40,272 nt of DNA from Hyphomicrobiaceae bacterium. GTDB taxonomy: Bacteria; Pseudomonadota; Alphaproteobacteria; Rhizobiales; Hyphomicrobiaceae. This document shows, in pieces, positions 13,312-37,312 of the stretch (its first letter is position 1; the number at the start of each line of letters is the position of its first letter). The position numbers were made by a program, and so were the translations under genes. The stretch is from the NCBI GenBank assembly GCA_013141255.1, contig JABFRJ010000386.1, forward strand, positions 1 to 40,272, in the 5' to 3' direction. The notes beneath the pieces were generated by a model. It was not told the origin of the DNA and made no database searches. It saw nothing but the letters and a program-made list of their open reading frames with translations.

Positions 13312-15939
13312 TCACTCACATTGCGAAAAATGACACGTATCGCAACTCCAGCATCCACCATACCGATGATACGTTGGTCGACTACATTTGGGACACGTCC
13401 GTCCCATCGGCGTGTCAGCATTCGATTGAAATGATCGACTTGCGCCCGACTCTGTCGCAGCAAGACGCGCTGAGCCAGAACCACGGTCGCCCGTTTTATC
13501 CAATTGAGGCTCGCTCCAGCCTACGCCGCCAACACCAACATCAGTTCGACGTTTATCAAAACCAGTCCCCGATACTGGTTTCCGTACATCGCTACCCGTC
13601 ACATCCAAATTCAATGCATGTTGCGGCAGTACTTCGGCACCACGATACGTCTTATCCAACCGGTTCAAATGCTTTTCAATGACGTCGCCGATTGCAGCTA
13701 AGAGGCTTGGCACATACCGCCCATCAATCCAGGCACCACCTTGAGGATCGAACACGGCTTTGAGCTCTTCCACAACGAATGAAACGTCACCGCCTCGACG
13801 AAACACCGCACTGATCATCCGCGTGAGTGCAACCGTCCAAGCGTAATGCTCGAGGTTTTTCGAATTGATAAAAATTTCAAACGGCTTCAGATGCCCATCA
13901 ATTGCGACATCGTTGATGGTAATATAGATCGCATGCTCGCTACGTGGCCACCGAAGCTTATAAGTAAAACCGCTCAAAACTTGATCCCGCTCGACCGGTT
14001 TCGCCATGTAAACAACCGCTCCTTCCCGTGAGCGGCGTTCGCCAACATGATCCAGCATGTGCGGTACAACCAATCGCGGTGGCGCCACGGCGTTAGCTTC
14101 AGCACTGGCAGCTGCACTCCCATCGCGTCGAACAATTGTGCGGCGTCCGTCACGATCATCAGCAGGATCAACGGATCTCCCAGGCTCTGGAGACATCGAA
14201 ATGGGAGCATCATCAACCGTCAAGACCGCGCCAGTCACGGCGTTGGTTCGGTATGTCGTGCACCCCTTAAGACCAAGATCAAATGCATCGAGATAAATCG
14301 ACTGGAAAGCATCAAACGTGAGTGATTGAGGCACATTGATTGTCTTTGAAATGGCGCTATCGATATGGGGTTGAGCCGCCGCCTGCATGAGCAAATGATC
14401 ATTCGGCGTCAACGTCTCCGCCGTCACAAAAGCCTCAGGCAAAGGCGAAGCCTCACCAGCCGCCGCACGAAACTGCCGATAAGCAAAATCTTCCACCTGC
14501 TCAAAATGCGGCGTACCATCCCCGCCAAGCACACGACGCTTCGTGCGCCAAGCAAAAACGGGCTCAATCCCACTCGATATATTTCCAGCCAACAATGATG
14601 TCGTCCCCGTCGGCGCAATCGTCGTCAAACAACCGTTACGCAATCCGCTCACCACGATCTTGTTTTTGATCGCATCAGGAAGCGTTGCGATATTTGGACG
14701 CTCAAGCAGAAGCTTCGCATTCGACAATGGGAATGCGCCCTTTTCTACGGCCAAATCGGCACTTGTCGCGTAAGCCACACACTTAATCACCCCCAGCCAA
14801 TCGCCGACCAGCCGCTGCGCTTCGCTCGATCCATAGCGCACGCCCAGCATAATCAAGGCATCCGCAAGCCCCGTCACTCCAAGACCGATACGGCGCTTAG
14901 CAAATGCTTCGCGTTTCTGTGCCTCCAATGGATACGTCGACACATCAATCACGTTGTCCAGAAAACGAACCGCGATTGCTACCGTTGCTTCAAGCCGCGC
15001 CACATCGAATTGCGCGGCACCATCCTTCGATGACGGCACAAAAGCCGTCAGATTAATTGCACCGAGTAGACATGCTCCATACGCCGGCAGCGGTTGCTCG
15101 CCGCAAGGATTGGTCGCCGCAATGGTCTCCGCATAACTAAGGTTGTTTCGCTTATTAATCCGATCAATAAACACGACGCCGGGCTCGGCGACGTCATAAG
15201 ACGCCCGCATCAATTTTTCCCACAACGCGCGGGCATCGACCGTTCTGACAACTTCACCATTAAACGCCAACGGCCACGGTTGCCCCGCCCGAATGGCATG
15301 AACAAATGCATCCGTAACCAACACTGAAAGATTGAAATTTCGCAGCCTCCCAGCCTCACGCTTGGCTTCGATGAAGGTCTCAATATCCGGATGGTCGCAA
15401 CGCAATGTCGCCATCATCGCGCCCCGTCGCGCACCCGCCGACATAATGGTTCGGCACATGGCGTCCCACACGTCCATAAACGACACTGGCCCCGACGCAT
15501 CAGCACCAAGACTGTTGACCAGCGCGCCTTTTGGTCTGAGTGTTGAGAAGTCCTGTCCGATCCCGCCTCCCATCTGCAGCGTCAGCGCGGCTTCCTTCAC
15601 GTTCTCAAAAATCGCCCCAAGATCGTCGTCAATGCGCCCCATGACATAGCAATTGAACAACGTCACCGCCCGGTCGGCACCAGCGCCTGCCAAAATGCGA
15701 CCGCCGGGTATAAAAGCCATCGATTGCAGCACATCTCTAAAGGCGTTTTCCCAGCGCCGCTTTTGATCAGAATGCTCGACCGATGCCGCTGCACGTGCAA
15801 CGCGCGCAACCGTCTGATCCCAAGTCTGATCAATGACCGTCCCATCGGCGCGCCTAAGTTGATACTTCTGCGCCCAGATCTCTCTCGAAATCTTTGGCCA
15901 TCGCACCATATCTTCAGGCAAAAACCGAGCACTGGTCAC
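13312..15939 (-). CDS. nrdJ: adenosylcobalamin-dependent (class II) ribonucleotide reductase, short form
   Basis: 875 aa. It reduces ribonucleotides to deoxyribonucleotides using a radical made from coenzyme B12, without oxygen. Visible active-site parts: C97 ('FNCYV'), the thiyl-radical loop NPCGE at 277-281 (C279), and C290, spaced 11 from C279 as in characterised NrdJ. 'GCLTTIAPTGTTSLL' matches the phosphate-binding end. A TSCPD-like domain follows at about 640-770, and the last 27 residues hold CxxC pairs (CPKC, CWSC, CDTC) that resemble a zinc ribbon. The start is a GTG at 15939 with an AGGTG site. A sigma70-like promoter and a LexA-type box lie upstream, so it is probably DNA-damage inducible. 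A second, longer class II enzyme is encoded at 33.6-37.3 kb. Confidence 0.93.
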   Translation of the reverse strand: MTSARFLPEDMVRWPKISREIWAQKYQLRRADGTVIDQTWDQTVARVARAAASVEHSDQKRRWENAFRDVLQSMAFIPGGRILAGAGADRAVTLFNCYVMGRIDDDLGAIFENVKEAALTLQMGGGIGQDFSTLRPKGALVNSLGADASGPVSFMDVWDAMCRTIMSAGARRGAMMATLRCDHPDIETFIEAKREAGRLRNFNLSVLVTDAFVHAIRAGQPWPLAFNGEVVRTVDARALWEKLMRASYDVAEPGVVFIDRINKRNNLSYAETIAATNPCGEQPLPAYGACLLGAINLTAFVPSSKDGAAQFDVARLEATVAIAVRFLDNVIDVSTYPLEAQKREAFAKRRIGLGVTGLADALIMLGVRYGSSEAQRLVGDWLGVIKCVAYATSADLAVEKGAFPLSNAKLLLERPNIATLPDAIKNKIVVSGLRNGCLTTIAPTGTTSLLAGNISSGIEPVFAWRTKRRVLGGDGTPHFEQVEDFAYRQFRAAAGEASPLPEAFVTAETLTPNDHLLMQAAAQPHIDSAISKTINVPQSLTFDAFQSIYLDAFDLGLKGCTTYRTNAVTGAVLTVDDAPISMSPEPGRSVDPADDRDGRRTIVRRDGSAAASAEANAVAPPRLVVPHMLDHVGERRSREGAVVYMAKPVERDQVLSGFTYKLRWPRSEHAIYITINDVAIDGHLKPFEIFINSKNLEHYAWTVALTRMISAVFRRGGDVSFVVEELKAVFDPQGGAWIDGRYVPSLLAAIGDVIEKHLNRLDKTYRGAEVLPQHALNLDVTGSDVRKPVSGTGFDKRRTDVGVGGVGWSEPQLDKTGDRGSGSARLAATESGASRSFQSNADTPMGRTCPKCSRPTYHRYGGCWSCDTCHFSQCE

Positions 15940-15968
15940 AAGAGCACCTAACGCAAAACACTCACATC

Positions 15969-15997
15969 AATATAGAGCATGCCCTCCGCATAGTCAA
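15969..15997 (-). promoter_or_regulatory. sigma70-type promoter of the short class II reductase gene
   Basis: Read on the minus strand: TTGACT (15997-15992), a spacer of exactly 17 bp, then TATATT (15974-15969). This gives a transcript start near 15962, about 23 bp before the GTG start codon. It is the clearest promoter in the window. Confidence 0.8.
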
Positions 15998-16002
15998 GAA
16001 AT

Positions 16003-16017
16003 GTTCCGTTTATGTTC
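16003..16017. promoter_or_regulatory. LexA-type SOS box (GTTC-N7-GTTC) upstream of nrdJ
   Basis: GTTCCGTTTATGTTC on the plus strand (GAACATAAACGGAAC toward the gene) is an exact match to the alphaproteobacterial LexA operator GTTC-N7-GTTC, with an AT-rich spacer. It ends 5 bp before the -35 hexamer of the promoter above, a place where a bound repressor would block polymerase. SOS control of this gene is an inference from site and position. Confidence 0.75.
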
Positions 16018-16031
16018 TTGTTAAAGTCTCT

Positions 16032-16802
16032 TTATGGACCTGACCTGATAGGCGCGGCTGCTACCACTGCAACGAACGGCGGCGGCAGTGGCCCAGCCAA
16101 CGCCTCAGCCATGAGACGCGCCGACGCCGCTTCAATTCGTGCTTCAACATCACGCCGAAACAGCGCACGCGACTGTCCAGCCGGTAAGGGCTCCAAAAAC
16201 TCGACAACAATTGTTCCAGGATACCGACGCAACGACCGACGTGGCCAATAGAGCCCTGAATTGAGTGCCAATGGAACACACGGCACCTGCAACCCTTCAT
16301 AAAGAGCGACATACCCCGGTTTATAGTCCGGTGGCGCACCCGGAGCCCGTCGCGTACCTTCAGGAAAAATCAAAATTTCACGTCCGCACGTCGCCCGCGC
16401 TCGACCGTCCGCCACCAACGCTTTAAGCGCCACCGCCGCACGATCACGCTTGACCAGAATGTGCTCAAACTTGACGCAAAACCACCCGTAAATCGGAATC
16501 CACTTGAGCTCATCCTTAAGTACAATCGCGACATCATCAAACAGCGGCACAAGCGCAAACGTATCCCAAGCGGACTGATGCTTTGCCACGACTAGATATG
16601 GTGCTTTGGGCAGACGTTCACGACCTCGCACCTCAATTCGCGTGCCACAAACGACCCGTAGCAACCACGTAGCAATGCGCCCATGCAACTTCAATCCCGC
16701 CATCGCCCACGATCGCGGAGCCAGCAACAACCATAGCCCACCGATCAACATCGCGACCGTCAGCAAATAGAAGGTGATTGCATAAAGAATGGAACGGATC
16801 AT
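16032..16802 (-). CDS. plsC: 1-acyl-sn-glycerol-3-phosphate acyltransferase (PlsC family)
   Basis: 256 aa from the ATG at 16802 (another ATG two codons upstream is equally possible; the 42 further residues in the ORF track are not convincing). An N-terminal membrane segment ('ILYAITFYLLTVAMLIGGLWLL') anchors the catalytic domain at the inner membrane. The acyltransferase motifs are intact: HQSAWD (the HX4D motif) and 'FPEGTRRAPG'. It acylates lysophosphatidate to phosphatidate in phospholipid synthesis. It lies about 150 bp downstream of ydcF and is the last gene of the ftsE-ftsX-ydcF-plsC run, an order I know from other Hyphomicrobiales. Confidence 0.9.
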   Translation of the reverse strand: MIRSILYAITFYLLTVAMLIGGLWLLLAPRSWAMAGLKLHGRIATWLLRVVCGTRIEVRGRERLPKAPYLVVAKHQSAWDTFALVPLFDDVAIVLKDELKWIPIYGWFCVKFEHILVKRDRAAVALKALVADGRARATCGREILIFPEGTRRAPGAPPDYKPGYVALYEGLQVPCVPLALNSGLYWPRRSLRRYPGTIVVEFLEPLPAGQSRALFRRDVEARIEAASARLMAEALAGPLPPPFVAVVAAAPIRSGP

Positions 16803-22500: not shown

Positions 22501-22846
22501 GCACCCAGCCCTATCCCGCAAGCGTGACCGAAACAATCACATGAGGTCCATCAACGCGTCGCCTGCCAGATTCGTGGCCCAACCAACAACAAGTCGTTCA
22601 GTGCATCGTCAAATCAGAACATAAAAAGAACATGCTTGCCGATTCCCCCTCGCCAATCCACCCCATTCGTGTATAAACCGCCTCGCTGACGCCTTAACGC
22701 GTCACACCTGACCCGGCTGGACGACATCCCGGCCGTGGCCTTGAGGTAATTCCCCAAATCCCGCAAGCAGTGTTTTCTAAAACACAGACGCACGCGAGAC
22801 CTTTGGTGGGATGAGCCAAATCCATCTCATTTGAAAGGAGATCCCG
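22501..22846. promoter_or_regulatory. divergent intergenic region (cation transporter / rpsO) with rpsO leader
   Basis: 346 bp. It holds a LexA-like box at 22617-22631 (listed separately), a TTGACG hexamer just beyond it on the minus strand that could be a -35 for the transporter gene, and about 150 bp of probable rpsO 5' leader ending in a strong GAAAGGAGAT ribosome site at about 22833. S15 leaders often fold to give autoregulation; I can see GC-rich inverted segments near 22720-22740 but not a definite known structure. Confidence 0.5.
22617..22631. promoter_or_regulatory. LexA-like box (GAAC-N7-GAAC)
   Basis: GAACATAAAAAGAAC, an exact GAAC-N7-GAAC match with an A-rich spacer. Over the 17 bp GAACATAAANNGAACAT it is identical to the box before the short nrdJ gene except at two spacer positions. 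On the minus strand it lies 4 bp from a TTGACG hexamer leading to the cation transporter gene, but no good -10 follows. Which gene, if any, it controls is unclear. Confidence 0.45.
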
Positions 22847-33281: not shown

Positions 33282-33614
33282 TTAATGCTTTGCCGTCGGT
33301 ACCAACACCAACACCGCCGCCAACGTCGTATTCAAATCACGCTTCGCCGCAATCAACGCCCGTCCCAGTGGCGAACCAAACGCCCGCATCCATCTTTGCC
33401 GGGCCCCAGGCGTCGCCATTACGTAAGTCAATGACGCTACCAAGTCCGCCTGCGAAATGAACTCATCCAACCCAAAGCGCGATCGAATATCATCCGCAAC
33501 ACGCTCCAACGCGATCAAACTTGCATCAGAACTGCTGAAGCCCGGCGCGCGACTGCGCACCGGAACTTCAACATTTGCTGCTATCGAGTTGAACTCGGTA
33601 ACAGGCCTCATCAT
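33282..33614 (-). CDS. uncharacterised small protein translationally coupled to the long nrdJ
   Basis: 110 aa if it starts at the ATG at 33614, which overlaps the nrdJ stop as ATGA (a second ATG follows at once). The longer 138-aa ORF lies inside nrdJ and is not preferred. Not recognised. It looks helical and basic at its C-terminal half ('[30 protein letters not shown]'), with an N-terminal '[15 protein letters not shown]' stretch. The stop/start overlap suggests it is made in step with the reductase. Confidence 0.72.
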
Positions 33615-36600
33615 GAACACCCGCTCGTCGAACCGCAGGTTTCGCACTTCAAGCAGGTCCCGTTGCGCACCAGCGTAAAGTTCTGGCATTCGCCACACGA
33701 CTCGCCCTCGTACCCCTTGATGCGCGCTTCCAATCGACGATCAGAAACCGACCGACTGCCCGATCCACCGCCCGTCATCGTCGTGGCATGCGTCACACCA
33801 ACAGGCGCGCTCACAGCCACCAGCGTTTCCGACTTGTGGAACGCCGTCGCCACATGCCCCTGCATCTGCGACACAGACTCCATGGCAAGCGCCGTATTAC
33901 CGCGCACAACCATCATGTCGCCATGCGCAGCGATCCGCCCGCGTGTGAAGCCGTGCGAAACAACCCGCTCCGCAGCAACCGGTTGAGTACGAACCTCGCC
34001 ATCTTCGTCTTCGCCTGCACCCATCGCCGTGACTGACAGATCTTCCGGTTCAACGTGAGCAAGATCGTTACGACCCAGATAAGACACCGCCAATTCGCGG
34101 AAGATATAATCAAGCACGCTGGTCGCGTTCTTGATCGTCTCGTTACCCGTCACGATGCCAGCTGGCTCAAAGCGCGTGAACGTAAACGCATCAACATATT
34201 CTTCAAGCGGCACGCCGTACTGCAAACCAAGGCTGATCGCGATGGCGAAATTGTTCATCAACGACCGGAACGCGGCGCCTTCTTTGTGCATATCGATGAA
34301 GATTTCACCGATGCGACCATCGCCATACTCGCCCGTCGTCAAGTATACCTTGTGCCCGCCAACCGTGGCTTTCTGCGTATAGCCCTTGCGACGGCCCGGC
34401 AGTTTTTCACGTTCATGCGCCCGCTCAATAATGCGCTCAACGATCTTCTCTGCAACCGCAGCTGCACGCGCCGTCTGCGACTTCGAAACGATGTCATCAG
34501 CAATATCACCCGCATCCTCGTCATCGTCCGACAACAGTTGCGAATTGAGCGGTTGCGACAACTTCGAACCATCACGATAAAGCGCATTGGCTTTAAGCGC
34601 CAATTTCCACGACATCATGTACGACTGTTTGCAGTCTTCCACTGTCGCATCGTTCGGCATGTTGATCGTCTTAGAAATTGCGCCCGAAATGAACGGTTGC
34701 GACGCCGCCATCATCAAAATATGGCTTTCAACCGACAATGAACGCTTGCCCTTGCGACCGCACGGATTGGCGCAATCGAAAACATTGAGGTGTTTTTCAT
34801 TGAGGTGCGGCGCGCCTTCCAGCGTCATCGCTCCGCACACATGCTCGTTCGCAGCTTCAATGTCTTTCTTCGAGAACCCAAGATGCGGCAGCAGCTCAAA
34901 CGCTGGATCGTTCAATTTTTCAGTCGAAATTTTCAACGTATTGACCAGGAAGTCTTCGCCCAGCGCCCACTTATTAAAGACGAACTTGATGTCAAACGCG
35001 CTCTTGAGACCGCTCTCAAGTTTCGCCAGCACATCTTCGGTGAAGCCTTTGGTCTTCAGCGTGCTGTGATTAATCGCAGGCGCTTGCCGCATCGTGCCGT
35101 GACCGACGGCATAGGCTTCCATCTCAGCAATCTGCGCTTCACTATAGCCGAGCGTGCGCAAAGCTTGCGGCACCGCCTGATTGATGATCTTGAAATACCC
35201 ACCACCAGCAAGCTTCTTAAACTTCACCAGCGCGAAGTCCGGCTCAATCCCCGTCGTATCGCAATCCATCACCAACCCAATGGTGCCCGTCGGCGCGACC
35301 ACCGACACCTGCGCGTTACGATACCCAGCGTCTTGGCCAAGCTCTATCGCCCGATCCCAAGCCTTCCGCGAGGCTGCAATCAGCGCTTTGTCAGCGCAAT
35401 TGGCATGATCAAGCGGCACGGGCACAATCGCCAGCTTCTCGTAACCTTCCGACTGTCCATAAGCCGCACGACGATGATTGCGAATAACGCGCAGCATGTC
35501 CTGCGAGTTTGGCTCATAGCCTGGGAACGCCCCAAGCTCACGCGCCATTTCCGCGCTCGTCGAATAAGCAACGCCGGTCATAATCGCCGAGATCGCACCA
35601 CAAATCGCGCGGCCTTCTGGACTGTCATAACCAATTCCAGAAGCCATCAACAAGCCGCCGATGTTGGCAAAGCCGATACCGAGCGTACGATAGCGATAGC
35701 TGAGCTCTGCTATCTGCTTCGATGGGAATTGCGCCATCATCACAGAGATTTCGAGCGCAATCGTCCACAAACGGCAAGCATGCTCATACGCTGCGATGTC
35801 AACTTTGCCTTCTGGCGACGCAAACCGCATCAGGTTCAACGACGCAAGATTGCAAGCTGTATCGTCAAGGAACATATATTCCGAACACGGGTTCGACGCC
35901 CGAATCGGACCCGACTGCGGGCACGTATGCCAATCGTTGATCGTGGTGTGGAATTGAATACCTGGATCAGCCGACGCCCAAGCCGCATGACCAATCTTTT
36001 CCCAAAGATCGCGCGCCTTCAACGTCTTCATCACTTTGCCATGCGTGCGACCTGTAAGGTTCCAATCCTTATCCGCCACAACTGCATCGAGAAATTCGTC
36101 CGTCACCCGCACGGAGTTATTCGAATTCTGCCCCGAAACCGTCAGATAGGCTTCGCTATCCCAATCGGTGTCATAGGTCGAAAAATCAATCTCCGTATAA
36201 CCCTGACGCGCAAACTGCATCACGCGACGGATATAATTGTCCGGAACCACATCGCGGCGAGCTTCTTTGATCGCCTGCTTCAGCTTCGGATTTTTGACCG
36301 GATCATAACAATCGTCGCCATCTGCTTCGCAGTTGACGCAAGCCTTCATGATCGCCTTGAGGCGCTTCTGGCAAATCTTCGAACCAGTCACGAGTGCCGC
36401 GACCTTCTGCTCTTCTTTCACTTTCCAATCGATATAGGTCTCGATATCCGGATGATCGACATCTACGACAACCATCTTCGCCGCACGACGCGTCGTCCCA
36501 CCCGACTTGATCGCACCCGCCGCTCGATCGCCAATCTTGAGGAAGCTCATCAAACCCGATGATTTACCACCACCCGAGAGCTTTTCATTTTCAGCTCTGA

Positions 36601-37312
36601 GTGACGAAAAATTAGATCCCGTGCCCGAACCATATTTGAACAGGCGCGCTTCCCGCACCCACAAATCCATGATGCCGCTCTCACCCACGAGATCATCAGC
36701 CACCGACTGAATGAAACAGGCATGGGGCTGCGGATGCTCATAGGCCGACGACGACAAGGTCAACTCGCCAGTGCGATAATCGACGTAGTAGTGTCCTTGC
36801 CCCGGCCCATCGATGCCATAGGCCCAATGCATACCCGTGTTGAACCACTGCGGACTATTTGGCGCCGCATACTGCATCGCCAACATGTAACGATGCTCAT
36901 CAAAGAAGGCGCGCGCATCGTCTTCCGTTGTGAAGTATCCCCCCTTCCAACCCCAATACGTCCACGTGCCAGCAAGGCGATCGAACACCTGGCGCGAGTC
37001 ATTTTCGCCAACAATGCGTTCGCCAGGCTTCAGATCAGCCATCGCCCGATCGTCAGCGACCGAGCGCCACAACCACGACGGCACCTGCGTTTCTTCGACT
37101 TTCTTAAGCCGCTTTGGTACGCCAGCTTTGCGGAAATACTTCTGCGCCAAAATGTCGGCAGCAACCTGGCTCCAATGCTCAGGCACAGCAAAATCGGCAC
37201 AACGGAATACAACCGACCCATCCGGGTTCTTTATCTCAGACGTCGCCTTGCGGAACGGAATGCTGTCGTAAGGTGATTTGCCCGCTTCGGTGAAACGACG
37301 TGAAATCTTCAT
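33611..37312 (-). CDS. nrdJ: adenosylcobalamin-dependent (class II) ribonucleotide reductase, long form
   Basis: 1233 aa, typical of the long alphaproteobacterial NrdJ. The reaction is the same as for the shorter enzyme at 13.3 kb, but the sequence is from a different branch. Active-site parts: C199 ('HACFIQ'), the radical loop NPCSE at 474-478 (C476, Ser in place of Gly) and C487, again 11 after C476. '[21 protein letters not shown]' gives the phosphate-binding region. A large insert with C-rich '[13 protein letters not shown]' sits at about 323-335, a TSCPD-like region near 1010-1100, and the chain ends in a zinc-ribbon-like Cys cluster (CGEC, CLKCETC). ATG at 37312 with AGGGG, partly held in a hairpin. 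It is probably the main housekeeping reductase (inference). Confidence 0.95.

Follow-up and report, generated by a model that had tools for sequence, protein, structure and literature searches.

In Alphaproteobacteria, the direct repeat GTTC-N7-GTTC is the established LexA motif (PMC3323433, PMC8565304), and the core of the LexA regulon comprises lexA, recA, uvrA, a TLS polymerase and imuA-imuB-dnaE2 (PMC3323433). The comparative regulon study spans Rhizobiaceae, Brucellaceae and Rhodobacteraceae and makes no mention of nrd genes or of a ribonucleotide reductase (RNR) (PMC3323433). An RNR under SOS control nevertheless has a precedent in Marinobacter, whose aerobic RNR genes have been assigned to the LexA/SOS gene set (PMC8233155). 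The literature we searched contains no report that places nrdJ under LexA in Alphaproteobacteria, but it covered few subscription papers and its silence is weak evidence of novelty. To our knowledge, the presence of two RNRs of the same class in one bacterium usually goes unexplained. Here we analyse a 40,272-nucleotide stretch of DNA (the window) that carries two nrdJ genes of different length and comes from a member of the Hyphomicrobiaceae, with Hyphomicrobiaceae, Hyphomicrobium and Filomicrobium as its nearest named relatives. Comparison of sequences suggests that the shorter one is probably an SOS-inducible accessory class II RNR gene that is conserved over much of Alphaproteobacteria.

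The short nrdJ (13312..15939, minus strand) runs from a GTG start at 15939 to 13312 and encodes an RNR barrel, a TSCPD domain and a C-terminal cysteine motif (Pfam PF02867, PF00317 and PF12637). Its 875-aa product had been called a class II ribonucleotide reductase in a preliminary description, and our data agree, as it scores 565 bits against TIGR02504 (cut-off 399.95) and its catalytic residues are conserved. The N-x-C-x-E thiyl cysteine motif (N277, C279 and E281) and the redox cysteines C97 and C290 are invariant in 9 orthologues, and the catalytic and redox cysteines were aligned to C322, C134 and C333 of Thermotoga maritima 1xjk. The CxxC...CxxC tail is kept in all but three of 80 orthologues, two of these three being frames that are cut short or broken. 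By family and by residue, the short NrdJ is thus a class II RNR with intact catalytic residues and is predicted to be AdoCbl-dependent.

The 92-bp intergenic gap ahead of this gene, bounded on its other side by an acyltransferase gene ending at 16032, holds both a predicted LexA box and a promoter-like sequence. On the plus strand positions 16003-16017 read GTTCCGTTTATGTTC, an exact GTTC-N7-GTTC, and toward nrdJ, on the minus strand, the box reads GAACATAAACGGAAC, an exact GAAC-N7-GAAC. On that same strand a -35-like hexamer TTGACT (15992..15997) begins 5 nt downstream of the box and is followed, after a 17-nt spacer, by a -10-like TATATT (15969..15974), while a Shine-Dalgarno-like AGGTG (15945..15949), read from the sequence, sits 5 nt ahead of the GTG. 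Box and promoter therefore stand before the gene just as originally described; TTGACT-N17-TATATT reaches a promoter score of 10/12, a level for which shuffled sequence is expected to yield 0.3 promoters. Counting from the -10 element that ends at 15969, transcription would start at about 15962 and leave a leader of about 23 nt. Because the acyltransferase gene and the short nrdJ point in the same direction, nrdJ is the one gene that the box can serve, and as no gene follows closely downstream on the same strand the transcript is probably that of a single gene.

The consensus GTTC-N7-GTTC has just eight fixed bases, and it matches 3 times in the window against 1.34 expected, a count reached in 19 of 100 shuffled windows. 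Genome-wide it occurs 98 times, fewer than the reversed (backwards) control pattern at 175. The pattern count, being above chance neither in the window nor in the genome, was rejected as evidence for the box, and since the consensus is so frequent by chance we instead judge the site by its matrix score, its place at the promoter and its conservation. The same frequencies favour the reading that the box is a chance match or an AT-rich UP element and that nrdJ is constitutive. We scored the box with a LexA matrix made from 97 training boxes upstream of recA and lexA in related genomes that bear a short nrdJ (consensus GAACAAAAAAAGAAC), a set that includes one-mismatch sites of our own selection. 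At 19.5 the nrdJ box lies above the training median of 17.5, and the threshold of 11.2 exceeds the score of 99.9% of random 195-bp windows (n = 1155). Independent of the matrix is the spacer of exact repeats: among 54 orthologue upstreams outside a Rhodobacterales-type clade, 23 contain GAAC-Nk-GAAC at k = 7, and no other value of k between 2 and 15 is seen in more than 2 of them (binomial P ∼4e-44, a value that ignores relatedness and is to be read loosely). Together with the absence of a site at the long nrdJ in 20 of 20 genomes, the matrix scores and the N7 spacer test largely refute a chance or UP-element origin, which we regard as extremely improbable.

By matrix score the nrdJ box ranks about 12th among the 98 exact genome matches, and among those that outscore it are the boxes of ssb and comM and of genes for a radical-SAM protein and a tyrosine recombinase. 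A second strong LexA-like box in the window (22617-22631, GAACATAAAAAGAAC, score 22.1) has the same sequence as the ssb box and lies between a CDF cation-efflux gene and rpsO-pnp; it was not conserved upstream of the CDF-transporter orthologues of the two relatives examined. The third match (36627) falls inside the long nrdJ reading frame, scores only 12.2 and was set aside as chance. Elsewhere in the genome, two identical LexA-like boxes (GAACAAAACAGGAAC; L069:2154-2168 and L070:1260-1274) adjoin genes for ArdC-like antirestriction proteins and suggest mobile elements linked to the SOS response. Further strong LexA-like boxes precede a flavin-dependent oxidoreductase gene (L065:2519-2533) and a bolA-glutaredoxin gene pair (L075:3548-3562), neither of which is among the SOS genes known to us. 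At the lexA promoters of the genomes compared (e.g. L211, L214, L226 and L228) there are often three GAAC-type half-sites at 11-bp phase together with another box in the opposite orientation, and this tandem 11-bp phase recurs at some short nrdJ promoters (G002, G008 and G010).

The preliminary description had made its reading depend on conservation of the box in close relatives. All 13 relatives for which sequence upstream of the short nrdJ was available carry it (7 exactly, 6 with one mismatch in a half-site), in most of them adjoining a TTGAC-like element, and it extends over several orders. Across 80 public-genome loci, many of them from metagenome bins, the box is present in Hyphomicrobium, Filomicrobium, Skermanella, Azospirillum, Asaia, Dongia and many Rhodospirillales; Hyphomicrobium facile and Azospirillum brasilense each have it in exact form. 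The upstreams of 49 of 79 orthologues score above 99% of the matrix background, 46 of these 49 in the same orientation, and outside Rhodobacterales about 46 of 53 alphaproteobacterial orthologue promoters score at least 11.2. The distance from box to -35 is likewise constrained to 5-7 nt at 30 of 44 sites. In more distant relatives of the short NrdJ, from outside the class (L281-L288 and L298), we found neither an exact CTGT-N8-ACAG nor the alphaproteobacterial box, which makes SOS control look specific to the class. Many Rhodospirillales have a first half-site that has drifted to AAAC, as might be expected if a different regulator used the same direct repeat and nrdJ answered another signal, e.g. 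cell cycle or oxygen. However, both the repeat and the AT-rich sequence between its halves agree with the recA and lexA boxes of the same genomes, and forms with one degenerate half (GTAC, GGAC, GCAC and AAAC) are found at lexA too, which leaves a different regulator quite improbable and LexA as the preferred reading.

The box is missing from almost all Rhodobacterales (Ruegeria, Phaeobacter, Thioclava and Nioella). On the protein tree, 54 rows, among them the window, fall outside the Rhodobacterales-type clade and 47 of them have the box, against 1 of the 25 rows scored inside the clade; its gains and losses need 9 changes compared with 24.8 when labels are shuffled. This distribution indicates that the Rhodobacterales-type clade has lost the nrdJ LexA box. 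We also checked whether an operon could explain the loss, but a strong box farther upstream exists in merely 1 of the 25 Rhodobacterales-type loci. As the groups covered in PMC3323433 include Rhodobacteraceae, where the box is lost, this may be why it was overlooked earlier. Exact DnaA boxes (TTATCCACA), absent from all 4706 random windows, occur within 250 bp upstream of the short nrdJ at 9 of the 25 Rhodobacterales-type loci (L144, L149, L156, L106, L131, L142, L146, L148 and L130) and at 6 of the 54 others, and replication-linked control is therefore possible. A wider reading, in which the short NrdJ would be a class-wide dedicated repair RNR under ancestral LexA control that Rhodobacterales lost and partly replaced by DnaA, is one that we put forward tentatively and consider rather doubtful.

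The genome itself encodes LexA (TIGR00498, 183 bits, at G000:C295:3937) with a G-R-I-A-A-G cleavage site and the GDSM serine, and its lexA carries its own exact box upstream. The protein thus has an intact autocleavage site and is predicted to be functional. No recA was found in the window's assembly, which is 86% complete, and boxes as strong as that of nrdJ stand at ssb and comM. The nrdJ box lies immediately upstream of the -35, unlike that of recA in many relatives, where the box falls between -35 and -10 with its second half on top of a -10-like element; how strongly LexA would repress from the nrdJ position is therefore uncertain. Such a position suits a LexA that, bound at about -41 to -55, modulates or activates transcription instead of simply repressing it, in which case loss of LexA would raise expression little; a dual role of LexA has reportedly been seen at recA of Rhodobacter sphaeroides. 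Against this, the box of comM abuts a TTGACT -35 in the same genome, and comM is an SOS gene in Caulobacter (PMC3323433), so the geometry found at nrdJ is in use elsewhere. We judge a modulating or activating LexA improbable and retain repression as the favoured reading.

The long nrdJ (33611..37312, minus strand), 20 kb from the short one, encodes a 1233-aa class II RNR that scores 2277 bits against NF005736 (cut-off 1737). Upstream of it there is no LexA site in the window, nor any scoring at least 11.2 in 20 of 20 other genomes, and no NrdR box within 3 mismatches precedes either nrdJ in the window. Matches to the long-NrdJ family were obtained in 65 of 65 genomes searched; since the short NrdJ also weakly matches this model, only the 56 genomes that exceed the cut-off are firm. 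Searches for a class I small subunit found none in the window's genome or in its 14 searched relatives (the cut-off is exceeded in 14 of the 65 genomes), and none of the 13 genomes searched for a class III RNR has one. For the window's genome this means that no RNR of class I or III was found in an assembly of 86% completeness. With matches to the long-NrdJ family in all genomes searched and the other classes absent from this genome and its close relatives, the short form appears to be accessory. The long gene is presumed to be the housekeeping paralogue, which fits the initial suggestion that it covers normal growth.

We consider it very probable that the short nrdJ belongs to the LexA regulon, being repressed by LexA and induced by damage as a second source of dNTPs while the long nrdJ serves replication. 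The steps that we infer are LexA binding, repression, induction and dNTP supply. In the undamaged cell, a LexA dimer on GAACATAAACGGAAC beside the -35 would block contacts of sigma and alpha-CTD and keep RNA polymerase off the near-consensus sigma-70 promoter. Upon DNA damage, RecA filaments would trigger LexA self-cleavage and release the promoter, and the resulting single-gene transcript would yield a second AdoCbl-dependent RNR whose extra dNTPs may feed repair and translesion synthesis. Meanwhile, dNTPs for ordinary replication would come from the long nrdJ, which lacks a LexA site. A LexA operator on one of two nrdJ genes would thus amount to a division of labour in which the long NrdJ serves replication and the short NrdJ repair. 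It would also add an oxygen-independent, B12-dependent route of dNTP synthesis to the alphaproteobacterial SOS response, with the prediction that tolerance of damage in such bacteria depends on the supply of B12.

For comparison, the NrdJ of T. maritima (1xje/1xjk) shares the aligned barrel, the catalytic NPCGE and both redox cysteines with the short NrdJ, but is a 644-residue chain to which the alphaproteobacterial form adds the TSCPD domain and the CxxC...CxxC tail, and the two differ in regulation. The described alphaproteobacterial LexA regulon uses the same operator, which in the window's genome is also present at lexA, ssb and comM; it differs in that no RNR is mentioned and in that the Rhodobacteraceae covered there largely lack the nrdJ box in our data (PMC3323433). 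Finally, Marinobacter resembles the present case in that RNR supply is tied to the SOS response, although there the enzyme is an aerobic, two-subunit one in a gammaproteobacterium (PMC8233155), whereas here it is a single-gene, B12-dependent RNR behind a different operator.
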